Source of the DNA: an uncultured Arthrobacter sp.
Lineage (GTDB): Bacteria; Actinomycetota; Actinomycetes; Actinomycetales; Micrococcaceae
Direction of reading: 5' to 3'
NCBI RefSeq assembly: GCF_947493765.1
Contig: NZ_CANLSZ010000007.1
Location: forward strand, 62,001 to 126,000
DNA length: 64,000 bases
Position 1 is the stretch's first letter. Each line of letters begins with the position of its first letter. Position numbers and translations under genes: made by a program. Positions 35,569 through 57,612 of the stretch are shown here, in pieces. Under the pieces are notes generated by a model. That model was not told the origin of the DNA, made no database searches, and saw only the letters and a program-made list of their open reading frames with translations.

Positions 35569-37662
35569 ATGGCGTTTCGGCTCGGCGTAGACGTGGGCGG
35601 TACGTTCACGGACATCCTCCTGATCAACGAGGATTCCGGGGAGACCCACCGCTTCAAGACGGCGTCCACGCCCGAGGACCAGTCGATCGGCGTGCTGCAC
35701 GGGATCGAGCAGGTGTGCCGGGCGGCCGGTGTCCCGACGTCGGAGGTGACCGAGGTGCTGCACGGCACCACCGCCGCCACCAATGCGATCCTCGAGCACA
35801 AGGGTGCCCGCGTGGGTCTGGTGACCACGAAGGGCTTCCGGCAGGTGCTGCAGATAGCCCGCTCCTTCGTGCCCGGTGGCCTGGCCGGGTGGATCATCTG
35901 GCCCAAGCCTGAGCCGCTCGCGGACCTCGAGGACACCGTGGAGGTGGCCGAACGCGTGACCACCGGCGGTGAGGTTCGTATTGCCCTCGACGACGACGAC
36001 GTCCGCACCCAGCTCCGCCGCCTGAGGAAGCGCGGCATCGAGGCCCTGAGCATCAGCCTCATCAATTCCTTCGCCTACGGCGCCCACGAGGCACGCGTCG
36101 CGGAGCTGGCTGCCGAGGAGCTGCCCGGCGTCCCCGTCTCCGTGTCCTCCGTGGTGCTGCCCGAGCTCCGCGAGTACGAGCGCACCATCACCACCGTGGC
36201 CAACGCCTATGTGCAGGGCCAGGTCTCGCGCTACGTGGGCAATCTGGAGGAGAAACTCACGGCGGCCGGAATCGACGGCGCCCTGTCCATCCTCCGCAGC
36301 GACGGCGGGCTCGTCTCGGGCAAGGTCGCCGCGGACAACCCGGTGTCGCTGCTGCTCTCCGGCCCGGCCGGTGGCGTGACCGGTGCGGTCTGGGCCGCCG
36401 AGCAGGCGGGATTCAAGGACCTGCTCACTTTCGACATGGGCGGCACCTCCACGGATGTGGCGCTGGTCCAGGACCTCACCCCGCGCATCGGCCGTGAGAC
36501 CTCGGTGGGCGATCTCACGGTCCGCGCCACCTCCGTGGACGTCCGCACGGTCGGTGCCGGCGGTGGCTCCGTCGCGCACGTCCCGCAGCTGACAGGAGCG
36601 CTCCGTGTGGGGCCGCAGTCCGCCGGCGCGGCACCCGGTCCGGCGTCGTACGGGAAGGGCGGCACCGAGCCCACGGTCACGGACGCGAACGTGGTGCTCG
36701 GGTATCTGCCCGCGCAGCTCGCGGGCGGCGAGATAGCGCTCGACGTCGACGCCGCGGCGACCGCCGTCGCCACGATCGCCGACGCCCTGGGCCTGGGTGG
36801 CGCCGAGAACGCGGCCGAGGGCATCATCGACATCGTCAACGAGAACATCTACGGCGCGCTGAAGCTCGTCTCCACCCAGCAGGGCTTCGATCCGCGGGAC
36901 TTCGCGCTGGTGGCCTTCGGCGGCGCCGGGCCCCTGCACGCCAATGCGCTGGGCAAGCTCACCGGCGCCTGGCCGGTGATCATCCCGCCGTCGCCCGGGG
37001 TGCTCTGCGCCTACGGGGACGCGACCACGAGCCTGCGCGACGAATCGGCCCGGACCCTCGTGAAGCGTTTCAGCGAGCTGGGCGACGCCGAGGTGCGTAC
37101 CGTCCTGGAGGAACTGGCCGCCACCGCGCGCGAATCGCTGCTGGCCGCCGGTCTGCGCGAGGACGAGCTGACGGTCACCTACTCGGCGGATCTGCGGTAC
37201 CACGGGCAGGGCTTCGAGATCCCCATCGGGGTGGACCTGGCGACCTTCACGGACGACGGCGGCCTGGCGGCCCTGCGCTCCAGCTTCGATGCCGAGCACG
37301 AGCGGCTGTTCGCGTTCCTGCTGGACAACGAGCACGAGCTCGTCACCGCCCGCGCCACGGTCAGCGGCCCCCGGCCCGAGGTCGCGGCGATCACCCTGGA
37401 GAGCGGCAGCGCCGATCCGCGGGCGGCGCTGCGCACAACCGACAGCATCTTCGTGGCCGGGGAGCGGGTGGAGGCGTCCATCTACGACCGTGAGCTGCTG
37501 CTCGCAGGGAATGTGGTCACCGGACCCGCCGTCATCGCGGAGATGGACTCCACCACGCTGGTGCTCCCGGGCCACACCGCCACCGTGCACCAGCACGGGA
37601 GCCTGCTCATCCGGCCCCTCGACGAGACCACCACCACCTCGTCCACCACCAGTGAGGACTGA
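35569..37662 (+). CDS. hyuA: Hydantoinase A / 5-oxoprolinase-like ATPase subunit
   Basis: A 697-residue protein of the hydantoinase/oxoprolinase superfamily. The N-terminus RLGVDVGGTFTDILL is the phosphate loop of the actin-like ATPase fold; FDMGGTSTDVAL is the second one, and GYLPAQLAGGEIALD plus ALVAFGGAGPLHANAL are family blocks. It opens cyclic amides (N-methylhydantoin, 5-oxoproline, caprolactam) with ATP hydrolysis, with HyuB as partner. GAGGAG precedes ATG 35569. Three bases separate it from hyuB. Confidence 0.92.
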   Translation: MAFRLGVDVGGTFTDILLINEDSGETHRFKTASTPEDQSIGVLHGIEQVCRAAGVPTSEVTEVLHGTTAATNAILEHKGARVGLVTTKGFRQVLQIARSFVPGGLAGWIIWPKPEPLADLEDTVEVAERVTTGGEVRIALDDDDVRTQLRRLRKRGIEALSISLINSFAYGAHEARVAELAAEELPGVPVSVSSVVLPELREYERTITTVANAYVQGQVSRYVGNLEEKLTAAGIDGALSILRSDGGLVSGKVAADNPVSLLLSGPAGGVTGAVWAAEQAGFKDLLTFDMGGTSTDVALVQDLTPRIGRETSVGDLTVRATSVDVRTVGAGGGSVAHVPQLTGALRVGPQSAGAAPGPASYGKGGTEPTVTDANVVLGYLPAQLAGGEIALDVDAAATAVATIADALGLGGAENAAEGIIDIVNENIYGALKLVSTQQGFDPRDFALVAFGGAGPLHANALGKLTGAWPVIIPPSPGVLCAYGDATTSLRDESARTLVKRFSELGDAEVRTVLEELAATARESLLAAGLREDELTVTYSADLRYHGQGFEIPIGVDLATFTDDGGLAALRSSFDAEHERLFAFLLDNEHELVTARATVSGPRPEVAAITLESGSADPRAALRTTDSIFVAGERVEASIYDRELLLAGNVVTGPAVIAEMDSTTLVLPGHTATVHQHGSLLIRPLDETTTTSSTTSED

Positions 37663-37665
37663 TCC

Positions 37666-39540
37666 ATGGCACAGCTGATCGAAACCGCCACCTCCGAGCT
37701 CACCGCCGTGGACGTGGACGTGGTGACCCTCGACCTGATCGAGAACGCCCTGCGCAGCGCACGCTACGAGATGGACGAGACACTCTTCCGCACGGCGCTG
37801 TCGCCGGGCATCCGGGAACAGCACGACGAGTTCCCGCTGATCGCCGATCCCGAGGGGAAGATGATCGTGGGCCAGTTCGGGCTCTCCATCCCGGACTTCC
37901 TGGCCAACTTCGACGGGACCATCGAGGAGGGCGATGTCCTGATGACCTCGGACCCGTACTCCTGCGGTGCGGCGATCAGCCATGCGAACGACTGGCTGGT
38001 GGTGATGCCCATCTTCTTCGACGGGCGGATCGTCGGCTGGGCGTCCCAGTTCGGGCACATGACCGACGTCGGCGGCAAGACCCCTGCGTCCATGCCCACG
38101 GACGCGCGGACCATCTTCGAGGAGGGCGTGATCATCCCGCCCTTCAAGCTGTACCGGAAGGGCGAGCGCGACGACACGTCGCTGGGGATCATCCTCAACC
38201 AGGTGCGCAAGCCCGACTGGAACCGGGCGGATCTCAACGGGATCGTGGCCGCCTGCCGCACGGCGTCGCGCCGCGTGCAGGAGATGTGCGCACGCTTCGG
38301 GGTGGACACCTACACCTCCGCGCTGAACGCCCTGCTGGACCGCAACTACCGGGCCATGAAGGCGCTGCTGGCCATGGTGTTCGAGGAGGGCAAGCCGCTC
38401 TCCTTCACCGACTACATCGACGACGACGGCCGCGGCTACGGACCGTACGAGCTGACCATGACGCTCACGCGCACGGGCGACAAGGTACTGATCGACCTCA
38501 CGGGCAGCAGCCCGCAGGCGCAGGGACCCATCAACTACTACATCAACGAGAATCTGATCCGGATGTTCTTCGGCATCTACATGATCACCGTCGCCGATCC
38601 GCAGATCCTCTGGAATGACGGCTTCTACCCGCTGGTGGACGTGGAGATCCCGGAGAACTCCTTCTGGAAGCCGGCGTACCCGGCGGCGCTCAACGGGCGC
38701 AACCATGGTATCGGCCGGTTGTTCGATCTCTTCGGCGGGCTCCTCGGCCAGGCCAACCCGGACCTGCTGAACGCGGCCGGCTTCTCCTCCTCCCCGCACT
38801 TCATGTACTCGGGGAACTACAGCGCCGGCGAGCGGAAGGGCGAGTGGTTCCAGCTCTACTCGATCGGCTTCGGCGGTATCCCGGGCCGGCCGGTGGGCGA
38901 CGGGCCAGACGGCCACTCGCTGTGGCCCTCGTTCGTCAACATCCCGTGCGAGTACCTGGAGAGCTACTATCCGCTGATCATCGACTGCTGGGAGACCATC
39001 CCGGACACCGGCGGCGCGGGCCTGCACCGCGGCGGTAACGGCGTGGACGTGGCGTACCGCTTCCTGGAGGCCGGGACCATCGCCATCCACGACGACCGCT
39101 GGCTCACCTACCCGTGGGGTGTGAAGGGCGGCGAGCCGGGGGCGCGCGGCACCAAGTGGATCGACCGCGCTGACGGTAGCCGGGAGGTACTGCCGTCCAA
39201 GGTGCACGACGTCGCCGTCGGCAAGGACGACGTCCTCCACTTCGTGACGTGGGGCGGTGGCGGCTGGGGTGACCCGCTGGCCCGTGACCCGGAGCTGGTG
39301 TGCAAGGAGGTGCGGCGCGGCCTGGTCACGCAGGCCGGCGCACGGGCCTACGGGGTGGTGTGCGACGACGACGGCGACCTCGACGCTGCTGCCACCTCCG
39401 CATTGCGTGATGCGCTGCGTGAGGGTCGGGAGGAGCCGCTGCCGCTGTTCAACCGCGGCGATTCCATGGAGAACCTGCTGGCCAACAGCCTCACCGAGAC
39501 CGGACTCCCGGCGCCGACGCCTCCGCTGGCGGTGCTGTGA
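37666..39540 (+). CDS. hyuB: Hydantoinase B / oxoprolinase-family catalytic subunit
   Basis: A 624-residue protein. DLIENALRSARYEMDETLFRTALSP and ISHANDWLVVMPIFFDGRIVGWASQFGHM are the conserved HyuB opening and its metal-binding histidine region. GGAGLHRGGNGVDVAYRF and VTWGGGGWGDPLARDP close the family core. It forms the ring-opening enzyme with HyuA. The stop overlaps the next GTG as GTGA. Given the amidase that follows, N-methylhydantoin is an attractive substrate, but caprolactam- or succinimide-like rings cannot be excluded. Confidence 0.92.
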   Translation: MAQLIETATSELTAVDVDVVTLDLIENALRSARYEMDETLFRTALSPGIREQHDEFPLIADPEGKMIVGQFGLSIPDFLANFDGTIEEGDVLMTSDPYSCGAAISHANDWLVVMPIFFDGRIVGWASQFGHMTDVGGKTPASMPTDARTIFEEGVIIPPFKLYRKGERDDTSLGIILNQVRKPDWNRADLNGIVAACRTASRRVQEMCARFGVDTYTSALNALLDRNYRAMKALLAMVFEEGKPLSFTDYIDDDGRGYGPYELTMTLTRTGDKVLIDLTGSSPQAQGPINYYINENLIRMFFGIYMITVADPQILWNDGFYPLVDVEIPENSFWKPAYPAALNGRNHGIGRLFDLFGGLLGQANPDLLNAAGFSSSPHFMYSGNYSAGERKGEWFQLYSIGFGGIPGRPVGDGPDGHSLWPSFVNIPCEYLESYYPLIIDCWETIPDTGGAGLHRGGNGVDVAYRFLEAGTIAIHDDRWLTYPWGVKGGEPGARGTKWIDRADGSREVLPSKVHDVAVGKDDVLHFVTWGGGGWGDPLARDPELVCKEVRRGLVTQAGARAYGVVCDDDGDLDAAATSALRDALREGREEPLPLFNRGDSMENLLANSLTETGLPAPTPPLAVL

Positions 39541-40229
39541 CGGCTGCACCCGGCTCCTCGTCTCAGTCCTCGTCGCCCGGATCCGTTCCGGCGGTCACTC
39601 CGCCGGTTGGTTCTCCCTCGTCGGGGTCCTTCTCGACAGGGTTCGACGGCGCACTGACACCGGGTCGGCGTCGGGCGGTGATCGCCGTCGACCTGATGCG
39701 GGCGTACTTCGACGAGGAGAGTCCGCTGTGCCTGCCGTCGTCGGACTGCCTGGCAGGAGCCGCCGCCGTCCTCGCCTCGGCCCGTGCGGCCGGGTACCCG
39801 GTGTTCCACACGGTGGTCAGGTTCGACGACGCCGAGCACGGTGGCGTCTTCCTGCGGAAGGTCCCGGCGCTGCGCCTCTTGATCAGTCCCTCACCGGGGG
39901 AGACCCCGCCGCTGGGGGAGTTGATGCCCCAGGTCGCCCCGATTGCGGGGGAGACCGTGGTGGTGAAGCAGTCGGCCAGCGCGTTCTTCGGCACCGATCT
40001 GGCCGACCAGCTGCGCGCGGCGGAGGTGGACACGGTGATCATCGTCGGAGTGAGCACCAGCGGGTGCGTGCGGGCGACCGCGGTGGATGCCGTGCAGCAC
40101 AATTTCGTGCCGCTCGTGGTGCGCGAGGCCGTCGGGGATCGCGACGACGCCGTACAGCGGTCGGCGCTGTACGACCTGCAGGCGAAGTACGCCGAGGTCG
40201 TGGGGCTGGACGTGATCCTGGGCGGCTAG
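39537..40229 (+). CDS. Isochorismatase-family amidase, N-carbamoylsarcosine amidohydrolase-like
   Basis: A 230-residue cysteine hydrolase. VIAVDLMRAYF supplies the catalytic Asp, VVKQSASAFFGTDL the Lys, and VGVSTSGCVRATAVDAVQ the Cys, in the isochorismatase triad. The blocks GGVFLRKVPAL, STSGCVRA, VVREAVGDR and AKYAEVVGL resemble the Arthrobacter N-carbamoylsarcosine amidase closely. A 45-residue Ser/Pro-rich leader precedes the fold. Coupled to hyuB (GTGA), it probably hydrolyses the N-carbamoyl product to an amino acid, CO2 and ammonia. The last codons lie inside the intergenic repeat copy B. Confidence 0.88.
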   Translation: MTAAPGSSSQSSSPGSVPAVTPPVGSPSSGSFSTGFDGALTPGRRRAVIAVDLMRAYFDEESPLCLPSSDCLAGAAAVLASARAAGYPVFHTVVRFDDAEHGGVFLRKVPALRLLISPSPGETPPLGELMPQVAPIAGETVVVKQSASAFFGTDLADQLRAAEVDTVIIVGVSTSGCVRATAVDAVQHNFVPLVVREAVGDRDDAVQRSALYDLQAKYAEVVGLDVILGG

Positions 40230-40350: not shown

Positions 40351-40626
40351 GCACCGACACGGGGCGCTCACAGGTCCGGAGCCGGCGTCGAGACAACGCC
40401 GCCGCGCAGAAGCAGCCGATGACGTGCGGCTCGGGAGCCGTCACTCCCTGTGCTGCATGACAAACAGGGAATGACCAGTCCCCACGGTGGGAGTTGCACA
40501 CCCCGAATCACCCACTCCGAGTAACGTAGGATTGTAGACAGTCCCCGTCCGGTCCGTCGGCGGGAGGCGAACCTGATTGCGCGCCCGGGGGGTCGCGACC
40601 GAACCCCGAGTGGAAGGTGGTCACCC
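40230..40626. other. Intergenic region before the ectoine-like module, no gene
   Basis: The first 120 bases are the repeat copy B. The next stretch (40351-40520) is unique and without a gene. A palindromic operator for the downstream GntR gene is at 40529-40544. A -10-like TAGGAT (40527-40532) overlaps it; I found no good -35 box. Confidence 0.7.
40529..40544. promoter_or_regulatory. GntR operator candidate 1 (autoregulation)
   Basis: GGATTGT-AG-ACAGTCC, 7-base arms with one mismatch, centre AG, 83 bases before the GntR ATG. It matches the ATTGT-N2-ACAAT pattern of the other two sites at 45193-45210 and 46274-46285. Confidence 0.6.
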
Positions 40627-41439
40627 ATGCAGAGATTCGAGCCCGTCGTCCGCGAATCCACGCCCTCGATCATCGCCGGCAAATTGCGCACCGCGATCGG
40701 TCTGGGCCACATTCCTCCGGGGGCCCAACTCGGCGAGGCCGAGCTTGCCAAGGAGCTCGGCGTGAGCCGGGGTCCGCTCCGCGAGGCCATGCAGCGGCTG
40801 ACCCAGGAGGGCCTGCTCATCAGCATCCGCAACCGTGGGCTGTTCGTCATCACCATGACGGACGACGAAGTCCGGGACATGTACGTAGCGCGAACCGCCG
40901 TCGAACGGGCTGCCGCCGAGCTCATCCTGCAGAAGGGTGCCGAAGACGTCGCGGCCCAGCTGGTGAACCTGGTGAAAGCCATGAAGAAGGCAGCTGACCG
41001 GAACGACCTGGATGCCATGTCCGAGGCCGACATGGCCTATCACGCCACCCTCGTCGCGGCGGCGGGTAGTAGCCGGCTGACGCGGATGCACCAGACCCTG
41101 CTGACGGAGACGCGCATGTGCCTGACGGCCCTCGAGAAGAGATACCCGGACCCCCACACCCGGGTGGCTGAGCACCAGGCCATCGCCGAAGCACTGGGTG
41201 CAGGCAACGCCGACCTGGTGGGCAAGCTGCTCATCAGCCACATGGACGACGCCCTGCAGCGGCTCACCGGCACTGAGAACACCGGCAAGGAAAGCGCCGG
41301 CACTGAGAACACCGGAACTGAGAACACCGGAACTGAGATCACCGGCGCTGAGAACACCGGAACTGAGAACACCGGCGCTGAGAAGCCTGGCGACGAGATC
41401 AGCGGCACTGACAGCGACAGGCAGCCGGCGACCGCCTAG
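40627..41439 (+). CDS. GntR/FadR-type regulator with pentapeptide-repeat tail
   Basis: A 270-residue regulator. The DNA-binding part is LGEAELAKELGVSRGPLREAMQRL with ISIRNRGLFV as the wing; the FCD domain follows (ARTAVERAAAEL, HTRVAEHQAIAEAL) with its ligand histidines. The last 55 residues are pentapeptide repeats based on GTENT, encoded by a 15-bp repeat at 41269-41403. The tail is unlikely to fold and probably does not bind ligand. GGAAGGTGG precedes ATG 40627. It probably represses the ectoine-hydrolase and aminotransferase operons through the palindromes found at their promoters. Confidence 0.88.
   Translation: MQRFEPVVRESTPSIIAGKLRTAIGLGHIPPGAQLGEAELAKELGVSRGPLREAMQRLTQEGLLISIRNRGLFVITMTDDEVRDMYVARTAVERAAAELILQKGAEDVAAQLVNLVKAMKKAADRNDLDAMSEADMAYHATLVAAAGSSRLTRMHQTLLTETRMCLTALEKRYPDPHTRVAEHQAIAEALGAGNADLVGKLLISHMDDALQRLTGTENTGKESAGTENTGTENTGTEITGAENTGTENTGAEKPGDEISGTDSDRQPATA
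41269..41403 (+). repeat. 15-bp in-frame coding repeat (pentapeptides GTENT)
   Basis: Nine 15-base units within the GntR gene encode GTENT, GKESA, GTENT, GTENT, GTEIT, GAENT, GTENT, GAEKP and GDEIS; a degenerate tenth (GTDSD) follows. The unit GGAACTGAGAACACC resembles half-units of the intergenic tandem array near 26.9 kb (GAACACC). Confidence 0.85.
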
Positions 41440-41499
41440 CCCCGGACTCGCCGGCTGCAGCTGGTGCCGAATCGGCTATCGGGCCGGCGCGTCCTCACC

Positions 41500-42738
41500 T
41501 CAGGTCCCGCCATGCCGCAGACACAGGAGCGCGTAAGCACGAGCGGCTGCAACGATCTCCGCGACACGGACGGATTCGTTCACCTGGTGTGCCTGGTCGT
41601 TCAGCCCACCCGGGCCCATGACGATGGTCGGTACGCCGAGATCGCGGGCCACGAATCCGCCGTCGCAGGCAGCTGTCCAACCGCTGATGGTGCTCTCCAC
41701 ACCGACGTCGGCCAGCGCGGACACGGCATTGGCCACGAGCGGATGGGCCTCGGGAGTACGGAAGCCGGGCATCTCCATGGAGACTGCGGCCTCGACCGAG
41801 ATGCCGTCCGAATCGATGCCGGCGTCACTGATCTGCGTCATCAGCCTGTCCCGGATCAGGCCTGCGTCGTCGTCGGGCATGAGGCGTCGATCCAGCGATA
41901 CCGAACATCGGTCCGCCACCATGGAGATTCCGGTGCCGCCCGTGATGAGGCCGATGTTCCAGGTGCCCGCGCCGAGCAGCGGGTCCGGCTGGGACTGGAG
42001 CCGGGCATGGTCGGCGCGGACGAGGTCCAGGATCCTCGCGGCGGCGTCGATCGCGTTCCGCCCGTCCGCGGGCCGCCCGGAGTGGGCCGACCTACCGGTG
42101 ATCTCCAGGTCGAGGTAGCTGTCTCCGCGGCAACCGATCACGGTCGTGAGGTCCGTCGGCTCGGCCACGACGCACGCCGAGTAGGAGAAGGCTGGGTCGG
42201 CGAGGGCAGCGGCGGTGAAGGCGCGGATGCCGATGCCGCGGTCCTCCTCGTCCACGGTGCATGCCAGCGCCGTGGTGAAGGGCAGCTCCACGCCGGCCTC
42301 CCGCAGGGCCTTCAGGGCGACGACGACGGCGGCCAGACCGCCCTTCATGTCCGTGGACCCGCGTCCGACGAGCCGCCCGTCCCGGGTGTACGGCTCGAAG
42401 GGGGGCCGGTCCCAGCCCGTCCCGGCCGGTACGACATCCGAGTGGCCGAGGAACAGGACGCCAGGCAGGGTGCCGCCCGGCAGGACGGCTGTGAGGTTCG
42501 GCCGACCCGGTGCCACCGTGTCGGTCGATACGTCGAGCCCGGAGCGTTCACAGAAGTCCTTCAGGACCTCCACGGTGGCCTCCTCGGTGCCGCCGGGGTT
42601 CTCCCCGCCGGCGGCCACCAGCGCCATGGTCAGGGAGACGAGGTCGTCCTCGCGGATGAGGCCGAGCACGTCCTGTTCGATGGCCGATCGTTCACGGGAC
42701 GTCAGCTCTCGATGCTGCCGGCCAGGAGCCGTCGTCAA
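41500..42738 (-). CDS. M20 (ArgE/DapE/ACY1-type) metallopeptidase, candidate N-acyl deacetylase
   Basis: A 412-residue zinc amidohydrolase. VLFLGHSDVVPAG carries the first metal His/Asp, GRGSTDMKGGLAAVV the bridging Asp, CTVDEEDRGIG the catalytic/metal Glu pair, and GGLNDQAHQVNESV the distal His. I start it at TTG 42738, which overlaps the stop of the aminotransferase (TTGA), so the two are coupled; the first ATG (42603) would delete the N-terminal 45 residues. Third gene of the ectoine-hydrolase operon. If that assignment holds, it could remove the acetyl group from N-acetyl-diaminobutyrate. Confidence 0.88.
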   Translation of the reverse strand: MTTAPGRQHRELTSRERSAIEQDVLGLIREDDLVSLTMALVAAGGENPGGTEEATVEVLKDFCERSGLDVSTDTVAPGRPNLTAVLPGGTLPGVLFLGHSDVVPAGTGWDRPPFEPYTRDGRLVGRGSTDMKGGLAAVVVALKALREAGVELPFTTALACTVDEEDRGIGIRAFTAAALADPAFSYSACVVAEPTDLTTVIGCRGDSYLDLEITGRSAHSGRPADGRNAIDAAARILDLVRADHARLQSQPDPLLGAGTWNIGLITGGTGISMVADRCSVSLDRRLMPDDDAGLIRDRLMTQISDAGIDSDGISVEAAVSMEMPGFRTPEAHPLVANAVSALADVGVESTISGWTAACDGGFVARDLGVPTIVMGPGGLNDQAHQVNESVRVAEIVAAARAYALLCLRHGGT

Positions 42739-43988
42739 CGGTTGTCCGTGCCTCTCAGGGCCTGGAGCTCCACGTCCATCGCACGGCGGAGGCGGAGGAT
42801 GCCCTCCTCGGCCCGTTCGGGAGTGGTGGAGGCGAAGCAGAGCCGCAGGGCGTCGTCGAACCTGCCGCTGGCGGACAGGGCCGGCCCGGGGATGAAGGCC
42901 ACGCCTTCGGCGAGTGCTGTCTCGAAGAGCTTGCTCGTCGAGATCCGCGCGTCCTCGCCCTGGAGTGTGAGCCAGAGGAAGAAGCCGCCTTCGGGGTCGG
43001 TCGTGGTGACCCTGGTGCCCAGATTCCGGTGCAGGCTCTCCTGCATGGAGTCCTTGCGGTGCCTGTATTCGGTCCGCAGGCCCGCGAGGTGTGAATCGAG
43101 GCCACCGCGGCGGATGAACTCGGCCACGATGTGCTGGCCGGGGACGTTGGTGCACGTGTCCATGGCCTGCTTGGCGTTGATGACGAGCTGGCGCAGCGCC
43201 GGGTCCGTGTCCACCCAGCCCACGCGCAGTCCTGGGGCCAGGATCTTGGAGAACGTGCGGACGGAGAACAGCAGCGGGTCGCCGGGACTCAGGGCCTGCA
43301 GGGACGGCAGGTCGTCACCCTGGAATCGCAGCAGACCGTAGGGGTCGTCGTCGATGATCACGGAGTTCCACTCGTGCGCCAGCTCCAGGAGCTGGTGGCG
43401 CCGTGGCAGGGAGAGCGTGGTCCCGGAGGGGTTCTGGAAGTTCGGGATGGTGTAGATGGCCTTGGGGGTACGGCCGGCGGCGGCGATCAGCTCCGGCAGG
43501 GCCTCCACGACGAGGCCGTTCTCGTCGGTCGGTGCCTCGAGCAGTTCGGCGCCGTAGCTCAGGGCGGTGGCGCTGCCGTTGGTGTAGGTGGGGCTTTCCA
43601 CGATGACCAGGTCACCGGGGTCGATGAAGATCTTGCAGGCCAGGTCGAGGCCCTGCATCCCCCCGGCTGTGATGGTGATGCGGTCCTCGGTGGTGGGATC
43701 CGATGTCCCTGCCAGGTAATCGACGAGATTCTCCAGCAGCACCGGCTCGCCCTCGGTGGCGCCGTAGGTCATGGAGCTGTGGTCGAACACCTGGTCCGCG
43801 ATGTCGCGGAACTCGGCCAGAGGCACGGCCTCGTTCGCCGGGGAGCCCATGGCGAAGCGGACGATGTCGTGCGTCTGGGCGGCCAGCAGCGACGTGCTGG
43901 AGTCGATGACCGAGCCGACGAGGCCGGCTGCGCGGTCTGCCAGAGGCAGGGTGGCACGGGATCGGGTGGCGGAGTGGTCGACGGTCAT
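42735..43988 (-). CDS. PLP-dependent aminotransferase (fold type I, kynurenine/LysN-type)
   Basis: A 417-residue aminotransferase. TITAGGMQGLDLACKIFIDPGDLVIVESPTY binds the cofactor phosphate, TIPNFQNPSGTTLS and IIDDDPYGLLRF surround the PLP ring, and SKILAPGLRVGW carries the Schiff-base Lys. It begins at ATG 43988 with AAAGGCGG upstream, two bases after the M24 stop. The branch contains kynurenine and 2-aminoadipate transaminases with wide substrate choice. It is the second gene of the operon. Its amino donor or acceptor in the pathway is open. Confidence 0.87.
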   Translation of the reverse strand: MTVDHSATRSRATLPLADRAAGLVGSVIDSSTSLLAAQTHDIVRFAMGSPANEAVPLAEFRDIADQVFDHSSMTYGATEGEPVLLENLVDYLAGTSDPTTEDRITITAGGMQGLDLACKIFIDPGDLVIVESPTYTNGSATALSYGAELLEAPTDENGLVVEALPELIAAAGRTPKAIYTIPNFQNPSGTTLSLPRRHQLLELAHEWNSVIIDDDPYGLLRFQGDDLPSLQALSPGDPLLFSVRTFSKILAPGLRVGWVDTDPALRQLVINAKQAMDTCTNVPGQHIVAEFIRRGGLDSHLAGLRTEYRHRKDSMQESLHRNLGTRVTTTDPEGGFFLWLTLQGEDARISTSKLFETALAEGVAFIPGPALSASGRFDDALRLCFASTTPERAEEGILRLRRAMDVELQALRGTDNR

Positions 43989-43990
43989 GG

Positions 43991-45172
43991 CTAGCCGCCT
44001 TTCTGGATGAGTTCTCGGGGGAAGCTGGTGAACGTCTCCACGCCGTCGGCGGTGACGCGGATCGATTCGGAGAGTTCGTAGCCGTAGCTGTCCATCCACA
44101 TGCCGCCGATGACGTGGAAGGTCATGTTCTCCGCGAGGATGGACTCGTCCTCGGAGCGGATCGAGATGGTGCGCTCGCCCCAGTCCGGCGGGTAGCCGAC
44201 GCCGATCGAGTACCCGATACGGGAGGGCTTCTCCAGGCCGTGTTCGGCCAGACTCCAGTTCCAGGCGCGGGCGAGTTCGCGGACGGGGACGCCCGGCTGG
44301 ACGCGGTTCAGCACGGCGTCGAGGCCGTCGGCGACGGCGTCGGCCAGCTTCGCCAGACGCTCCGGCTTCTTCCCCAGTGTCAGCGTGCGCGCCAAGGGGG
44401 TGTGGTACCGCCGGTGTGCCCCGGCAAGCTCGACGACGACGGACTGGCCGGCCTCGAAGCGGTCGGCGTTCCAGGTCAGGTGCGGGGTGTCCGATGCCTC
44501 ACCCGTCGGGAGCAGCGGCACGATGGCAGGATAGTCACCGCCGATGTCGTCGGTGCCCGTGATCTGGGCCTGGCTGATGGCCGCAGCGGCGTCGCACTGG
44601 CGGACGCCGACGTCGATCGTCTCGACGGCGGCTTCCATGGCTGCCATGCAGACCTGTGCCGCGCCGCGCATCAGCTGGATCTCGGCCGGGGACTTCACGG
44701 AGCGGACCCAGTTCACCAGCTCGAAGCTGTCCACGAGCGTCCATTCCGGGATGGCGTTGACCAGGGACCGATAGGCCTTGGGGGAGAAGAAGTGGGAGTC
44801 CATCTCCAGGCCCACGCAGCCCTTGGCCGCCGCGGCGATGAGATGGCGCTCGCGCAGGGCGAAGGCCACCCAGTCGAAGGGGTGCAGGTGCGGGCGGTGC
44901 ACATAGCGCTCGGGGTATCCCACGATGCACTCCGGCGGCAGCCAGGTGGTGCGGAAGGCGCCGTCGGCATCCATGGCCCGGGCGAAGAGCAGCATGGGAC
45001 CGTCGGCGGGGACGAAGACCAGCTGCGGGGTGTAGAAGGACCACGCGTTGTACCCCGTGAGGTAATAGATGTTGGCGGGATCGGTGACCAGCAGGGCGGA
45101 GAGCCCCTGCTGTTGCAGGCGCACGCGCACACCGGCCAACCGGGCGTCGTACTCCTCTTGGCTGAACAGCAA
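43991..45172 (-). CDS. doeA: M24-family ectoine hydrolase-like protein (DoeA/EutD type)
   Basis: A 393-residue pita-bread protein. LVTDPANIYYLTGYNAWSFY, GGDYPAIVPLLPTGEASD, PHLTWNADRFEAGQSVVV and SRIGYSIGVGYPPDWGERT match the DoeA/EutD branch much better than creatinase or Xaa-Pro dipeptidase. DoeA opens ectoine to N-acetyl-2,4-diaminobutyrate. The start is TTG 45172 with GGAGGTGG just upstream. It is first of a three-gene operon (M24, aminotransferase, M20), and a palindromic operator lies just upstream at 45193-45210. The specific substrate is inferred from homology and gene context. Confidence 0.82.
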   Translation of the reverse strand: MLFSQEEYDARLAGVRVRLQQQGLSALLVTDPANIYYLTGYNAWSFYTPQLVFVPADGPMLLFARAMDADGAFRTTWLPPECIVGYPERYVHRPHLHPFDWVAFALRERHLIAAAAKGCVGLEMDSHFFSPKAYRSLVNAIPEWTLVDSFELVNWVRSVKSPAEIQLMRGAAQVCMAAMEAAVETIDVGVRQCDAAAAISQAQITGTDDIGGDYPAIVPLLPTGEASDTPHLTWNADRFEAGQSVVVELAGAHRRYHTPLARTLTLGKKPERLAKLADAVADGLDAVLNRVQPGVPVRELARAWNWSLAEHGLEKPSRIGYSIGVGYPPDWGERTISIRSEDESILAENMTFHVIGGMWMDSYGYELSESIRVTADGVETFTSFPRELIQKGG

Positions 45173-45192
45173 GGGCCACCTCCGGCACGTCG

Positions 45193-45210
45193 TAGATTGT
45201 CTACAATCTA
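45193..45210. promoter_or_regulatory. GntR operator candidate 2 (M24 operon)
   Basis: TAGATTGT-CT-ACAATCTA, a perfect 8-base inverted repeat with a 2-base centre. On the minus strand it overlaps a possible -10 box, TTAGAT, which stands 17 bases from TTGTGT. It is 20 bases upstream of the TTG start of the DoeA-like gene. Confidence 0.65.
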
Positions 45211-45259
45211 ACTCATGTGGTGCGGCTCACACAAACCGCGGGGTCGAACGGTTCGGCGA

Positions 45260-46267
45260 TCAGTGGGTACTGACGTAGCCGCGGTGCTTGTCCACGACGC
45301 CGGTCAGATTCCCGCCTGCTGTCCACTCCTCCAGCTTGTCCAGGAACTGCTCTGCCAGCGCGTCACGCCAGCCGATCACGTCCCCGCACATGTGGGCGGA
45401 CATATGCACGTTCTCCATGGTCCAGAACGGGTGGTCTGCCGGGAGGGGCTCCTCCCGGAACACGTCCAGTGAGGCGGCCGCGATCCGGCCTTCCCGGAGG
45501 GCCTCGATGAGGGCGGATTCGTCCACCAGGGCACCGCGGCCCACGTTGACGAGGTGCGCGGACGATTTCAGGACCGCGAGGACGCGGGCGTCCACCAGGT
45601 CGCGGGTCTGCTCGGTGAGCGGGGCGATGAGTACCAGGTGGTCCGCCCAGCCTGCATGTTGCGCCAGGTCCGCGCTCCGGTGGACCACCCCGAAGTCCGG
45701 ATCATCCTCGCGCGCCGTGCGACCGACGCCGCGGACCTCCAGTCCCACGGCGCGCAGCAGCCGGGCAGTGGCGCGCCCGATACCGCCCGTACCCACGACC
45801 AGGGCGTGCGAGCCACCGCTGCGAGTGACTTCGCGGTGCTGCCAGACGGCGCGCTGCTGGAGGGCCTTGCTCAGGTGCAGCTGCTTGTCGTGGGCCAGGA
45901 CGGAGGCCAGGACGAACTCCGCGATGGGCTGATCGAAGGTGCCGTGGGCGTTCGTCACCACGACGTCGGAGGACCGCAGCTCGTCGAACATCATGGCGTC
46001 GACGCCGGCCGCGGCCACGTGCACCCACTTCAGTGCATCCGCCTGTGGCCACGCCTCCCTCAGCGCCGAGGAGAAGAAGTCCCAGAGGAAGAGGACGTCG
46101 GCTCCGATAGCCGCGCGGGCAAGGCCGGCGGCGTCCGTCACGGTCACCTCCGCCAGTGCCCCGATCTCGGCCAGGTTGTAGGGGAGCGGTTGTCCTTCGG
46201 CGGCGAGAACGACAACGCGGGGTGCGCGGCTCTCCTCAGTGGTAGGCACGGTCCAACCGTAAAGCAT
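45260..46267 (-). CDS. D-2-hydroxyacid dehydrogenase
   Basis: A 335-residue NAD-dependent dehydrogenase. VVGTGGIGRATARLLRAVG is the Rossmann loop, VNVGRGALVDESALIEAL supplies Arg, the Glu is in DVFREEPLP, and HMSAHMCGD holds the active-site His. It would interconvert a 2-oxoacid and a D-2-hydroxyacid. ATG 46267 gives a very short leader, only a few bases after the operator at 46274; a GTG at 46249 is possible. It is transcribed away from the aminotransferase and toward the M24 operon, 87 bases ahead of it. Confidence 0.88.
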   Translation of the reverse strand: MLYGWTVPTTEESRAPRVVVLAAEGQPLPYNLAEIGALAEVTVTDAAGLARAAIGADVLFLWDFFSSALREAWPQADALKWVHVAAAGVDAMMFDELRSSDVVVTNAHGTFDQPIAEFVLASVLAHDKQLHLSKALQQRAVWQHREVTRSGGSHALVVGTGGIGRATARLLRAVGLEVRGVGRTAREDDPDFGVVHRSADLAQHAGWADHLVLIAPLTEQTRDLVDARVLAVLKSSAHLVNVGRGALVDESALIEALREGRIAAASLDVFREEPLPADHPFWTMENVHMSAHMCGDVIGWRDALAEQFLDKLEEWTAGGNLTGVVDKHRGYVSTH

Positions 46268-46273
46268 CGCCCG

Positions 46274-46285
46274 ATTGTTGACAAT
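46274..46285. promoter_or_regulatory. GntR operator candidate 3 (divergent promoters)
   Basis: ATTGT-TG-ACAAT, a perfect 5-base inverted repeat with a 2-base centre. It overlaps the TTGACA -35 box of the aminotransferase promoter and stands seven bases before the ATG of the divergent dehydrogenase, so a bound regulator would block both. Confidence 0.7.
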
Positions 46286-46307
46286 AAACAGCTGTGACCT
46301 GCATCAT
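46278..46307 (+). promoter_or_regulatory. Promoter of the aminotransferase operon
   Basis: TTGACA (46278-46283), 18 bases, then CATCAT (46302-46307); the ATG at 46315 begins seven bases later, about where transcription would start. No ribosome site precedes the ATG, so the message is probably leaderless. Confidence 0.6.
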
Positions 46308-46314
46308 AGTGCGC

Positions 46315-47592
46315 ATGACTTCGCTCAGCCCGGCACTCAAGCAAGCAACCCCCGTCGTCGTGGATCGTGCTCTCGGCAGCTGGATCTACGGGACCGACGG
46401 CAGGGACTATCTGGACTTCACCACGGGTATCGGCGTGACGAGCACCGGGCACTGCCATCCGAAGGTGGTGGCCGCCGCACGCGAGCAGGTGGGCAAGATC
46501 ATCCACGCCCAATACACCACGGTGATGCACAAGCCGCTGCTGGAGCTCACCGAGAAGCTCGGGGAGGTCCTTCCCACCGGCCTCGATTCCGTGTTCTACG
46601 CCACCTCGGGATCCGAAGCCGTCGAGGCCGCCATCCGCCTGGCGCGCATGGCCACCGGGCGCCCCAACATCGTGGTGTTCCAGGGAGGGTTCCACGGTCG
46701 CACCGTCGCCGCCGCGTCCATGACCACGGCGGGGACCAGGTTCTCCGCAGGATTCGCACCCCTGATGGCAGGGGTCCACATGTCCGCCTTCCCCTACGCG
46801 TACCGCTACGGCTGGGACGAGGACGTGGCCGTCGCCTTCGCCCTGCAGGAGCTCGACTACCTGCTGCAGACCCGCACGGCGCCGAACGACACCGCGGCCT
46901 TCCTCATCGAACCCGCGCTGGGTGACGGCGGGTACCTGCCTACACCGCCTGCCTTCATGGAGGGGCTGCGGGAACGCGCCGACACCCACGGCATCCAGCT
47001 GATCTTCGACGAGGTCCAGGCCGGCGTCGGCCGCACCGGCAGGTTCTGGGGCCACCAGTACTCCGCCGCCACACCGGACATCCTCGTCACGGCGAAGGGC
47101 ATCGCCTCCGGCTTCCCCATCTCCGCGATCGCCGCGTCCACCGAGACCATGTCCAAGGCCTGGCCCGGTTCCCAGGGCGGGACGTACGGCGGCAACGCCG
47201 TGTCCGCCGCGGCCGGCGTCGCGACACTCGAGGTGGTGAAGGAGGAGGGGCTCGTGGAGAACTCCCGCCTCCGCGGTGAGCAGCTGCAGGTCGGACTGAA
47301 GGAGATCCAGGACCGCTGCCCGGCGATCGGCGACGTCCGCGGACGCGGCCTGATGCAGGGCATCGAGTTCAGCCGCGAGGACGGCACGCCCGACGGCGTC
47401 ATGGCCGCCGCGGTCCAGCAGGCCACCGTGGACCAGGGCCTGCTCACCCTGACCTGCGGCCCCGCCGGCAACGTGATCCGTCTGATCCCCGCCCTGGTGG
47501 TCACGCCCGAGGAGATCTCCACCGGGCTGGAGCGCTTCGAGGCGGCGGTGGCCGCCGTCGTCGGCGCCGTCACCGCCACGTCGGGAGGCTGA
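46315..47592 (+). CDS. Class III aminotransferase (4-aminobutyrate / diaminobutyrate transaminase family)
   Basis: A 425-residue ornithine/GABA-type aminotransferase. YATSGSEAVEAAIRLAR binds the phosphate, IFDEVQAGVGRTG carries the PLP aspartate, VTAKGIASGFPIS the Schiff-base Lys, and GGTYGGNAVSAA the subunit-shared Thr. If the cluster degrades ectoine it would be the DoeD step, diaminobutyrate to aspartate semialdehyde. ATG 46315 is chosen because it agrees with a leaderless promoter; a GTG at 46294 adds seven residues. First gene of a four-gene operon. Confidence 0.88.
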   Translation: MTSLSPALKQATPVVVDRALGSWIYGTDGRDYLDFTTGIGVTSTGHCHPKVVAAAREQVGKIIHAQYTTVMHKPLLELTEKLGEVLPTGLDSVFYATSGSEAVEAAIRLARMATGRPNIVVFQGGFHGRTVAAASMTTAGTRFSAGFAPLMAGVHMSAFPYAYRYGWDEDVAVAFALQELDYLLQTRTAPNDTAAFLIEPALGDGGYLPTPPAFMEGLRERADTHGIQLIFDEVQAGVGRTGRFWGHQYSAATPDILVTAKGIASGFPISAIAASTETMSKAWPGSQGGTYGGNAVSAAAGVATLEVVKEEGLVENSRLRGEQLQVGLKEIQDRCPAIGDVRGRGLMQGIEFSREDGTPDGVMAAAVQQATVDQGLLTLTCGPAGNVIRLIPALVVTPEEISTGLERFEAAVAAVVGAVTATSGG

Positions 47593-47600
47593 GGCGACAG

Positions 47601-50600
47601 ATGACCGTGTCCTCCCCGCCGGATACCCCCGCCGTCGTGCCTGCCGCTGCACCCGACGCCGCGCAGCAGGCGGTGCTCGAGCACTTGGCCGCCGCAGGCG
47701 TCGACGCCGACGGCTCACCCCGGCGGCTGGCGGAGTACTCCTACGACGCGTCCAATTACCGCGTCCCGCCGCTCGCCGTGGTGTTCCCGCGGTCCACGGA
47801 GGACGTGGTGGCCACGCTGGCGGTCTGCCGGCAGACCGGAACCCCGCTGATCAGCCGCGGTGGTGGGACGTCCATGGCGGGCAATGCCGTCGGGCCGGGG
47901 GTGGTGCTGGACTTTTCACGGCACTTCGACCGGATCCACGGCTTCGATGAAGCGGCCGGCACGGTGTCCGTGGACCCGGGCGTGGTGCTCGCCGTCCTGT
48001 CCCGCGAGGCGGAGCAGGCAACCGATAACCGGTTCACCTTCGCCCCGGACCCGTCGTCCAGGACCCGGGCCACCGTGGGGGGTTCGCTGGGCAACGACGC
48101 CTGCGGCAACCACTCCGTGCGCTACGGCCGCACCTCGGACCACGTGGTGGAGCTCGACGTCATCACCTCCGACGGCGCACAGCTCACGGCCACTGCGGGC
48201 GGGCTGCGCGCCACGCACCCGGGGGACGGCTTCGCCGCAGCCCGCGCTGCCGCCCTCAACACCTCGCTCACAGAGCTCGCCCACCGCAACCTGGCGACCT
48301 TCCGCACCGAACTGGGCCGCATCCCACGGCAGGTCTCGGGCTACCACCTGGCCAACCTGCTGCCGGAGAACGGCTTCGACGTGGCCCGTGCCCTGGTGGG
48401 CTCGGAGGGCACCTGCGCGATCATCACCGGTGCCCGGATGAAGCTCGTGCCCAAGCCGGCCAGTGCGCTCCTGGTCTGCCTCGGCTACGCGGACGTGGTG
48501 GAGGCGGCCCGGGACATCGGAACCATCCTGGAGTTCTCCCCGGCGGCCGTCGAGGGCATCGACGAAGCGATCGTGGACACGATGCGGTTCCGCCGGGGCG
48601 AGGACGCGGTGCTGGGCCTGCCGGAGGGCAAGGCGTGGCTGTACGTGGACCTCGACGGCGAGGATCCCGCCGCCGTGGAGGCCGAAGCCGGTCGCCTGCT
48701 GGCCCGTCTCCGGGAGAACGGCCGCCTCGTGGCGGGCAGGCCGGTGCCCGACGCCGTCGAGCGGGCTTCCCTCTGGCGGGTCCGCGAGGACGGGGCCGGG
48801 CTGTCGTCCCGCCTCTCCACGGGCGGCGAGTCGTGGCCCGGCTGGGAGGACTCCGCCGTCGCGCCGGAGAAGCTCGCGGACTACCTCGCCGAGGTGCGCG
48901 GACTGCTGGACAGCTACGGACTCAAAGGAGTCATGTACGGGCATTTCGGGGCCGGCTGCATGCACATCCGCATCACGTACGATCTGCGCACGGATGAGGG
49001 CCGCGAGGCCTTCCGGGACTTCTCCCGCGCGGCGGCCCGGCTGGTGGTGCGGCACGGCGGTTCGCTCTCCGGCGAGCACGGGGACGGCAGGGCCCGCTCG
49101 CAGCTACTGCCCCTGATGTACTCGCACTCCATACTGCAGGCGTTCGCCGACTATCGCCGCCTGTGGGATCCCGCGGGCATCCTGAACCCGGGCTCGCTCA
49201 CCGACCCCGACCCGCTGGACGCGCAGCTGGCCCTGGACGGTGTGCCGCAGCGCGAGTGGCGGACCAGCTTCGACCTGCGGCCACTGCACTCCGGCGGAGG
49301 TTCCTCCGCCGAGACGGACAAGCCCGCGAACGAGAGCGGAAGCGGCAGCGATCCGTGGGTCCACGCGCTCCAGGCCTGCATCGGCGTGGGCCGCTGCCGC
49401 ACGGATTCCGGCGGGGTGATGTGCCCCAGCTACCGGGCCACGGGCGACGAGAAGGATTCCACCCGCGGCCGCGCCCGCGTGCTGCAGGACATGGTCCGCG
49501 GCGCGCGCACCGTGGAGGAGGGCTGGAGATCCGAGGAGGTCCGGGAGGCCCTGGACCTCTGCCTGTCGTGCAAGGCCTGCTCGAGCGACTGCCCCACGGG
49601 CGTGGACATGGCCACCTACAAGTCCGAGTTCTTCGACCACTACTACCGGGGCAGGCTGCGGCCGCTCTCCCATTTCTCCCTGGGCTGGCTGCCGCGGTGG
49701 CTGAAGCTCACCGGCCGCGTGGCTCCGCTCGTCAACGCCGTGCTGGCAACGCCCCTCGGCACGCTGGCAGCCGCGCTCGGCGGTCTCACCACGGCGCGCT
49801 CCCTGCCGCGGTTCGCCCGCGGCAGCGCATGGCGCGGGGAGGTCGCTGCTGCAGGGGTGGTGATGCCGGGGCGGCTGCGCAAGGACAGGAGGCGTGACGG
49901 CGTCGCGCCCGGTTCCGCCGCGGAGGGTGTGGTCTTGTTCGTGGACACCTTCACCCGCGGCTTCCGGCCCGAGGTGGCCGGTGCCGCAGCCCGCGTGCTG
50001 ACCGAGGCGGAAGGGCGCACAGAGTGCGCGGCCGACGCGTGCTGCGGCCTGACCTGGATCTCCATCGGCCAGCTGGACACCGCCAGGCGATTGCTCGGCA
50101 AGGCTGCCGAGGCGCTCGACGACGGCACGGACCGCCCCATCGTGGTGGTGGAACCCAGCTGTGCCGCGGCGCTCCGCAAGGACCTGCCCGAGCTGGTCCA
50201 CACCGATCAGGCGCGGCGCGTGGCAGCCCGGGTGCGCAGTTTCGCCGCGCACGTCGATCAGCTCACGCGCGCAGGCTGGACGCCGACGCCGGAGGAGGCG
50301 CTCCCGGAGAAGGTGGTGCTGCAGACGCACTGCCACGAGTACTCCGTCTTCGGAGCCGGCACCCAGAAGGCCACGCTCACCGCCGTCGGCATCACCGACG
50401 TCGTGGACGCCACCGGCTGCTGCGGCGTGGCAGGGAACTTCGGCTTCGAGAAGGAGCACTACGAGGTGAGCATGCTCGTCGCCGAGCAGGCGCTGGCTCC
50501 GGCGCTGCGCAGCACGGGCCGGGAGTCCGTGGTGCTCACCGACGGCTTCTCCTGCGCCATGCAGGTCGAGCAGCTCGACGGCGAGCGGCAGGGCAGACAC

Positions 50601-50738
50601 CTCGCCCAGCTGCTCGATCCCGGCACGGGTACGCGTGGCGCACCACGTCCGGGCCCAGGAGAAACAGCCCGTACCGCCCGACCCAGCCGCCCCGCAGCGG
50701 TCCCCGACCTCCCACTTCCTCACGACAAGGACTCCTGA
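47601..50738 (+). CDS. FAD-binding oxidase with two [4Fe-4S] and CCG domains (D-2-hydroxyglutarate/D-lactate dehydrogenase type)
   Basis: A 1045-residue fusion in the GlcD-GlcF (YdiJ/Dld-II) layout. N-terminal FAD-binding PCMH domain: ISRGGGTSMAGNAVGPGVVL and DPSSRTRATVGGSLGNDACG. FAD-oxidase C domain: GVMYGHFGAGCMHIRIT and GSLSGEHGDGRARS. Then ferredoxin cysteines in CIGVGRCRTDSGGVMCPS and CLSCKACSSDCPTG, and two CCG cysteine motifs near the end (DACCGLTW, TGCCGVAGN). It oxidises a D-2-hydroxyacid and passes electrons to the respiratory chain. It starts eight bases after the aminotransferase stop. Confidence 0.9.
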   Translation: MTVSSPPDTPAVVPAAAPDAAQQAVLEHLAAAGVDADGSPRRLAEYSYDASNYRVPPLAVVFPRSTEDVVATLAVCRQTGTPLISRGGGTSMAGNAVGPGVVLDFSRHFDRIHGFDEAAGTVSVDPGVVLAVLSREAEQATDNRFTFAPDPSSRTRATVGGSLGNDACGNHSVRYGRTSDHVVELDVITSDGAQLTATAGGLRATHPGDGFAAARAAALNTSLTELAHRNLATFRTELGRIPRQVSGYHLANLLPENGFDVARALVGSEGTCAIITGARMKLVPKPASALLVCLGYADVVEAARDIGTILEFSPAAVEGIDEAIVDTMRFRRGEDAVLGLPEGKAWLYVDLDGEDPAAVEAEAGRLLARLRENGRLVAGRPVPDAVERASLWRVREDGAGLSSRLSTGGESWPGWEDSAVAPEKLADYLAEVRGLLDSYGLKGVMYGHFGAGCMHIRITYDLRTDEGREAFRDFSRAAARLVVRHGGSLSGEHGDGRARSQLLPLMYSHSILQAFADYRRLWDPAGILNPGSLTDPDPLDAQLALDGVPQREWRTSFDLRPLHSGGGSSAETDKPANESGSGSDPWVHALQACIGVGRCRTDSGGVMCPSYRATGDEKDSTRGRARVLQDMVRGARTVEEGWRSEEVREALDLCLSCKACSSDCPTGVDMATYKSEFFDHYYRGRLRPLSHFSLGWLPRWLKLTGRVAPLVNAVLATPLGTLAAALGGLTTARSLPRFARGSAWRGEVAAAGVVMPGRLRKDRRRDGVAPGSAAEGVVLFVDTFTRGFRPEVAGAAARVLTEAEGRTECAADACCGLTWISIGQLDTARRLLGKAAEALDDGTDRPIVVVEPSCAAALRKDLPELVHTDQARRVAARVRSFAAHVDQLTRAGWTPTPEEALPEKVVLQTHCHEYSVFGAGTQKATLTAVGITDVVDATGCCGVAGNFGFEKEHYEVSMLVAEQALAPALRSTGRESVVLTDGFSCAMQVEQLDGERQGRHLAQLLDPGTGTRGAPRPGPGETARTARPSRPAAVPDLPLPHDKDS

Positions 50739-54971: not shown

Positions 54972-55038
54972 GAAACCTACATCCCTCGTGAAGTACCGTT
55001 TTTCAGCTTGCACAGCACTTTAGGTGCCTTACGACAAA

Positions 55039-55071
55039 TTATGCATAACTCGACAGTACGAAAGTACTGTC
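55039..55071. promoter_or_regulatory. Palindromes between the Lrp gene and the ABC importer
   Basis: TTATGCATAA (55039-55048) is a perfect 10-base palindrome, and GACAGTAC-GAAA-GTACTGTC (55052-55071) is an 8-base perfect inverted repeat. Both lie in an AT-richer stretch, the usual setting of Lrp-type binding sites, and may bind the adjacent double Lrp. Confidence 0.55.
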
Positions 55072-55172
55072 CGGGTGCAATTATGACGCACATACGGTTG
55101 ACGCAGGTCGATTGCGACTCCAGACTTTCATCACGACGCCAGGCGGCGATCGTTCGACCTGATGGAGTGAGC

Positions 55173-56012: not shown

Positions 56013-56044
56013 CCACGCCCCCCACACCTTGAGAGGGGGCCCGC

Positions 56045-57552: not shown

Positions 57553-57612
57553 CCCGGACCGCTCCCTGTAACTGCTCCAGAGAACTGCTTGACGAACCCC
57601 CAGGAGGTGACG

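Follow-up and report, generated by a model that had tools for sequence, protein, structure and literature searches.

Three conserved palindromes as predicted operators of an FCD-type GntR regulator in a putative ectoine-type gene cluster of Arthrobacter

Introduction

Does a single regulator govern the catabolic module found in a 64,000-nucleotide stretch of an uncultured Arthrobacter sp. (assembly GCF_947493765.1, contig NZ_CANLSZ010000007.1, positions 62,001 to 126,000; hereafter the window), and which compound would that module consume? A first-pass annotation had proposed one GntR-family repressor for the whole 40.6-53.8 kb module, acting through three matching palindromes, and had labelled the genes (hydroxy)ectoine-type. 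We propose, at a probability of about 0.8, that the FCD-type GntR protein encoded by the first gene of the module (gntR) uses the palindromes as its operators and would thereby repress four transcription units.

Results

The three palindromes, operators 1 to 3 in Table 1, lie where the first-pass annotation had placed them: at the promoters of gntR, of the operon that begins with an M24-family hydrolase gene (M24), and of the divergent dehydrogenase and class-III aminotransferase genes. Operators 2 and 3 carry the proposed shared sequence ATTGT-N2-ACAAT exactly; operator 1 departs from it by one mismatch and reads ATTGTAGACAGT. The exact form ATTGTNNACAAT occurs in the window only as these two copies, a number reached in none of 100 shuffles, and exact ATTGTnnACAAT occurs nowhere else in the 2,986,442-base genome. 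With at most one mismatch to the 12-mer, the genome holds eight places against one for a reversed control pattern. Three of the eight are the cluster sites, four more lie within open reading frames, and the last has no open reading frame nearby as called by a crude gene caller. In the genome search, which had been suggested as a check, the exact 12-mer is confined to the cluster; the looser TTGTNNACAA shows no enrichment across the genome, with 6 places (two of them in the cluster) versus 12 for its reversed control.

To collect relatives, we searched bacterial genomes once with the M24 protein; this gave 63 named loci and, being a single-protein scan, reaches close relatives only. Thirty-nine loci come from Arthrobacter, Pseudarthrobacter, Sinomonas, Kocuria, Tersicoccus, Williamsia, Mobilicoccus and one Kitasatospora record, with loci L050 and L051 belonging to one metagenome bin; the other 24 are from Brevibacterium. 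TTGTnnACAA occurs 101 times in the 39 non-Brevibacterium loci (732,532 bases), where the runner-up among 64 palindromes of like composition occurs 11 times, and not once in the 24 Brevibacterium loci (467,236 bases). These Brevibacterium loci have M24 mostly without other cluster genes, the exceptions being L075, which also has an M20 homolog, and L087, with homologs of the class I/II aminotransferase (AT1), M20 and the MFS transporter; most carry a distant (27-29%) class-III aminotransferase.

Conservation follows the predicted promoters. We scored the best 12-mer (ten fixed bases) in 250 bp of upstream DNA plus 30 bp. Each locus, the window among them, contributed a single best copy of a gene, and only loci whose stretch included the upstream DNA were counted. 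Every class-III aminotransferase gene (29/29) and every dehydrogenase gene (29/29) has a 10/10 site, a single shared one where the two are divergent neighbours. For M24 the score is 10/10 in 21 of 40 loci and 9/10 in four more (25/40 at 9 or above), and for gntR it is 10/10 in 8, 9/10 in 11 and 8/10 in 3 of 27 loci (22/27 at 8 or above). Perfect sites also precede genes for an amidase (11/14), EutA-like proteins (7/9), MFS transporters (6/30) and DUF3830 proteins (5/17). Genes inside the operons rarely or never reach 9/10: succinate-semialdehyde-dehydrogenase-like aldehyde dehydrogenase (SSADH) 0/32, AT1 0/40, M20 0/36 and the oxidase 1/23. Among 10,000 random 280-bp windows of Brevibacterium DNA, none scored 10 and 92 scored 9.

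Most genes lacking a site are themselves placed in a telling way. Twelve of the 15 M24 genes below 9/10 lie on the same strand 34-148 bp behind SSADH and could therefore be read from the other operon; in L054, L055, L056 and L058, where M24 follows SSADH at 168-175 bp, the gap holds an exact site in 4/4. The five gntR genes without a site all follow DUF3830: in L057, L063 and L068 a site precedes the amidase gene that heads the row, and in the other two the retrieved stretch ends before the amidase position. Of 57 loci whose gntR ortholog is at least 50% identical, several of them sharing a genome, 52 show 8/10 or better upstream of the gene; 226 of 5,000 stretches drawn at random from these loci, with the sites left in, score as high. 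The ATTGTAGACAGT form of operator 1 recurs at gntR in 11 of the 14 loci whose ortholog is 85-92% identical; in the nearest relative, A. echini (L045), the gntR site scores only 8/10 and lies farther upstream. Because the same imperfect sequence stands at gntR orthologs we rejected a chance near-match, and this conserved departure from symmetry suggests that operator 1 is a weaker site, for self-control. Taken as a set, the three palindromes are very probably real, conserved operators.

The distribution of the regulator points to the same protein. All 12 cluster genomes without gntR in the examined stretch encode an ortholog, 52-85% identical, at another place in the genome or record set, that of L051 probably being the gene beside L050, and an ortholog is absent from nine Brevibacterium genomes (of the 24 loci), where the best match has E 3.1e-29 and the eight matches listed are 30-34% identical. 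Across 295 genomes of the family, the 64 for which an ortholog at 50% identity or more was listed contain on average 3.5 exact 12-mers and the 231 others 1.0, against 0.33 and 0.21 for the reversed control; at least one exact site is present in 60 of the 64.

The GntR protein passes both Pfam domains (PF00392 with 59.6 bits, cut-off 27; PF07729 with 86.4 bits, cut-off 24.3). Its residues D135, H139, H183 and H205, which we take to be the usual FCD metal ligands, are invariant in 45/45 ortholog sequences. Around ten 15-bp tandem repeats at 41265-41411 give the protein a tail rich in Gly, Thr, Glu and Asn, in which Pfam calls pentapeptide repeats. The cited part of Suvorova et al. 2015 (PMC4494728) relates certain FadR-subfamily residues to which base comes second in the TKGT box: G/C is avoided with Pro at 40, and Asn at 59 shows a preference for A/T that is not significant. 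With that paper's numbering mapped by us onto the orthologs, Pro40 and Asn59 are present in 45/45 sequences, and position 28 is Ala, Ser, Met, Thr or Gln and never Arg, a combination that fits TTGT rather than TGGT. The sites are of the kind expected for FCD-GntR regulators, TKGT/ACMA palindromes with GT and AC 2-3 nt apart, as had been claimed. From this combination of conserved sites, co-occurrence and DNA-reading residues, regulation of the whole module by a single FCD-type GntR appears well supported; that it acts as a repressor we infer from the overlap of its sites with promoters.

A consensus promoter scan of 40400-46400 returned a single promoter-like match, TTGACA at 46278 followed after 18 nt by CATCAT ending at 46307, ahead of the class-III aminotransferase operon. 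All 29 aminotransferase sites (25 distinct sequences) read ATTGTTGACAAT towards the gene, which sets a perfect TTGACA inside the operator. The start codon follows TTGACA by 35-37 nt in 19 of the 25 sequences; in the other six our script halted at an in-frame upstream ATG or GTG, with an ATG seen farther on. Such an upstream codon stands 28 nt from TTGACA in 5/25 and 31 nt in the window. Because the distance to the ATG places the transcript start approximately at that codon, the mRNA of this operon is likely leaderless, the alternative being translation from the in-frame upstream ATG or GTG. The putative M24-operon promoter has a GGAGG-type ribosome site downstream of its TAGATT hexamer, and at gntR a TAGGAT hexamer overlaps the edge of operator 1. 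As operators overlap -35 or -10 boxes at each of these three promoters, a bound repressor would exclude polymerase.

The M24 promoters carry a further element resembling a site of the cAMP receptor protein (CRP), TGTGA-N6-CCACA, at 45216-45231 (minus strand) in the window and 23-24 bp before the operator. In 24 distinct M24 upstream regions with a recognisable site, it scores 9/10 in 11, 8/10 in 3 and 4-5 in 10; hosts at 8/10 or above are Arthrobacter, Pseudarthrobacter and Sinomonas, and 20,000 random windows gave 43 at 9/10 and 173 at 8/10. Because it overlaps the putative -35 box, a cAMP-receptor-type protein could act at these promoters.

Table 1. Genes, predicted promoters and predicted operators of the module (window coordinates)
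Feature	Coordinates	Strand	Remarks
gntR	40627-41439	+	FadR-subfamily regulator (GntR winged helix-turn-helix and FCD); C-terminal 15-bp tandem-repeat tail
M20 metallopeptidase-family deacylase	41500-42738	-	ArgE/DapE-like; start codon uncertain
Class I/II aminotransferase (AT1)	42735-43988	-	Like the MocR aminotransferase domain, without winged helix-turn-helix; start codon uncertain
M24 hydrolase	43991-45172	-	DoeA/EutD-like; 156/385 aligned residues identical to ectoine hydrolase 6twk
D-2-hydroxyacid dehydrogenase family	45260-46267	-	
Class-III aminotransferase	46315-47592	+	ATG preferred to upstream GTG codons
FAD-linked oxidase with Fe-S domain	47601-50738	+	GlcD/D-2-hydroxyglutarate dehydrogenase-like
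SSADH-like aldehyde dehydrogenase	50740-52233	+	
MFS transporter	52304-53761	+	ProP/metabolite:H+ symporter type
Operator 1 (predicted)	40531-40542	.	ATTGTAGACAGT, one mismatch; 85-96 bp 5' of gntR ATG; overlaps end of TAGGAT -10-like hexamer
Operator 2 (predicted)	45196-45207	.	ATTGTCTACAAT; core of 18-bp palindrome 45193-45210
Operator 3 (predicted)	46274-46285	.	ATTGTTGACAAT; between divergent dehydrogenase and class-III aminotransferase genes
Aminotransferase-operon promoter (predicted)	46278-46307	+	TTGACA, 18 nt, CATCAT; -35 inside operator 3; ATG 8 bp past -10
M24-operon promoter (putative)	45205-45234	-	TTGTGT (45234-45229), 18 nt, TAGATT (45210-45205); -10 overlaps operator 2; not in consensus scan

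The genes at 35569-40229, before the module, encode HyuA, HyuB and a hydrolase of the isochorismatase family; among solved structures this hydrolase is best matched by N-carbamoylsarcosine amidohydrolase (E 3e-37). We considered these genes as regulon members and rejected them: none has a homolog in loci L014-L105 at E 1e-15, and no exact site precedes them in the window. Possibly they form an N-methylhydantoin/creatinine route that adjoins the regulon and is not conserved with it. After the module, 54072-58587 holds a two-unit Lrp/AsnC-type regulator (54072-55013), an amino-acid-type ATP-binding cassette (ABC) transporter and a second D-2-hydroxyacid dehydrogenase; the Lrp gene has no match at E 1e-15 in loci L014-L105.

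Discussion

We propose that the FCD-type GntR protein represses gntR itself together with three other units: the M24-aminotransferase-M20 operon, the gene of the dehydrogenase, and the operon of aminotransferase, oxidase, aldehyde dehydrogenase and transporter. It would cover the -35 box TTGACA inside operator 3, and the -10 boxes TAGATT and TAGGAT at operators 2 and 1, and a pathway metabolite bound in the FCD pocket would release it. The M24 enzyme may open the ring of the substrate, the M20 enzyme deacylate the product, and the class-III aminotransferase and aldehyde dehydrogenase finish the breakdown.

We consider it probable that ectoine, hydroxyectoine or a closely analogous compound is what this pathway takes up and degrades. 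The solved structures nearest to M24 are by far those of ectoine hydrolase, 6twk and 6twj (6twk at E 3.7e-102 and 40.5% identity over 385 residues; the next other protein at 1e-19). In relatives the regulon is larger, with further genes for an amidase, a DUF3830 protein, an ABC transporter and two proteins resembling EutA/arylmalonate decarboxylase. In L141, the four transporter proteins encoded beside the module all pass the curated cut-offs for the Ehu transporter (EhuB 264.5 bits, cut-off 190.9; EhuC 258.1, 197.0; EhuD 259.9, 205.2; EhuA 374, 345.4). A search with this EhuB protein that was blind to the motif (E 1e-60) found it in 9 of the 295 family genomes, all of them among the 64 with the regulator (hypergeometric 7e-7). 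A site precedes ehuB in 9/9 at -97 to -104; eight are exact, one has a single mismatch, and in all of them TTGACA points towards the gene. This confinement of EhuB to regulator genomes, with the operator before ehuB, favours ectoine or hydroxyectoine. As a side observation, the DUF3830 protein (L043 14609-15118, and in relatives) often belongs to the extended regulon, next to an amidase; a literature search gave no paper naming DUF3830.

Other observations pull away from ectoine and lend weight to a serious, if less probable, alternative, namely that regulon and regulator are the same and the substrate is another N-acylated or cyclic amino compound handled by M24, M20 and the two aminotransferases. 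M24 scores 408 bits against TIGR02993, the DoeA equivalog and still its nearest NCBIfam model, with a cut-off of 613, and its relatives in L083, L060 and L068 score 388-407. EutE/DoeB (TIGR02994) has no match in the genome at E 0.001, in a search whose control matched in 1 of 14 genomes and passed the cut-off in none. No EhuB above the cut-off was found in the window's genome (best 77 versus 190.9 bits), where transporters of the tripartite ATP-independent periplasmic type (UehABC/TeaABC) were not searched. The ectoine route, as set out in the cited parts of the published accounts, gives no role to three of the enzymes, namely the dehydrogenase, the oxidase and the class I/II aminotransferase; the first two do not suit ectoine breakdown. 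Further, among solved structures the class-III aminotransferase is best matched by γ-aminobutyrate aminotransferases, the best model for the aldehyde dehydrogenase is SSADH, below its cut-off, and the EutA-like proteins of relatives reach 84-94 bits where the cut-off is 318, the one compared with solved structures matching arylmalonate decarboxylase and maleate isomerase. The AMDase/EutA family gave no match in the window's genome, and since the controls also gave none this is not proof of absence. The (hydroxy)ectoine-type label gains from the EhuABCD-type transporter that relatives keep under the same operator, and loses from the M24 score and from the missing EutE and EhuB.

It is improbable, in our assessment, that the sites are real operators read by another FCD-GntR paralog rather than by the product of the adjacent gene. 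Identical ATTGTTGACAAT sites occur around ABC-transporter genes in L136, L137 and L146 of the same family, and in L136 and L137 they adjoin different GntR paralogs (26% and 38% identical) that likewise have Asn59 and Ala28. Ten scored GntR-like matches are present in the window's genome. The pairing of motif and regulator has further gaps: an exact match is found in 125 of the 231 family genomes without the ortholog, four of the 64 with it have no exact site, and the M24 promoters of L048, L050 and L053, which are not behind SSADH, reach only 7/10. These exceptions all weigh against our proposal. Since sites also occur in non-ortholog genomes and beside the L136 and L137 paralogs, the motif goes with this regulator without being exclusive to it, and one operator word seems to serve several GntR paralogs. 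Set against a paralog as reader are the own-promoter sites of the ortholog, whose five exceptions follow DUF3830 with the amidase first where the stretch extends, the co-occurrence in 12 positive and 9 negative genomes, and the finding that the window's genome has no exact site beyond the cluster. That the palindrome is a promoter element, its TTGACA box palindromic by accident, or a chance sequence with no repressor bound, is very hard to credit despite the perfect -35 box and uniform orientation of the 29 aminotransferase sites, given that at M24 and gntR the palindrome lies on the -10 side with different centre bases, that a plain promoter requires no palindrome, and that the motif is absent from the Brevibacterium loci.

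The FCD-type GntR regulon proposed here would be a known kind of system with an FCD regulator in place of EnuR. It resembles the FadR-subfamily regulons of PMC4494728 in its winged helix-turn-helix and FCD domains and, as far as the cited part goes, in its A/T-rich palindrome with TKGT/ACMA boxes; ectoine, DoeA and EutD are not mentioned in the main text of that paper. The proteobacterial EnuR/EutR regulon, in the parts of PMC8739950 and PMC5320631 drawn on here, likewise controls ectoine hydrolase, aminotransferase, aldehyde dehydrogenase and Ehu genes through half-sites ATTGT/ACAAT that overlap the core promoter. EnuR, however, is a MocR/GabR protein with a pyridoxal phosphate domain, and the consensus cited for it is ATTGT-N6-ACAAT (PMC8739950, in the part consulted), so that both spacing and regulator class differ. 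The EnuR-type sequence ATTGT-N6-ACAAT does not occur in the window even with one mismatch, and no EhuR/EnuR above the cut-off was found in the genome (best 177 versus 480 bits).

The putative Gram-positive ectoine clusters of PMC13188858 (2026), as given in the cited sections, resemble the present module in having an EutD-like hydrolase and no EutE; they also include the amidohydrolase gene abgB, an aldehyde dehydrogenase and an MFS or Ehu transporter, again as here. The regulator described there for Bacillota is PucR, and Arthrobacter, GntR and FCD are absent from the main text; in the same sections the clusters are termed provisional. A literature search for ectoine hydrolase with Arthrobacter and GntR returned nothing, and among the titles listed by wider ones none concerned an FCD regulator of ectoine genes.

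According to those sections of PMC13188858, Gram-positive ectoine consumption has so far been proposed from sequence only. Against this background we raise, tentatively and as a doubtful rather than a favoured idea, that in Arthrobacter, Kocuria, Williamsia and their kin the ectoine pathway has been rewired, with a FadR-type regulator replacing the MocR-type EnuR, the ATTGT/ACAAT half-sites kept and their spacing reduced from 6 to 2 bp. The same arrangement would include a leaderless mRNA for the aminotransferase operon, a -35 box inside the operator, and one 12-bp sequence serving as operator of both divergent units and promoter element of one. A compact regulon with a defined operator allows a cheap direct test with the regulator, three short DNA sites and a few candidate inducers. 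The motif may also be used to find more genes of the pathway, as the ehuB, amidase and EutA-like genes were found.

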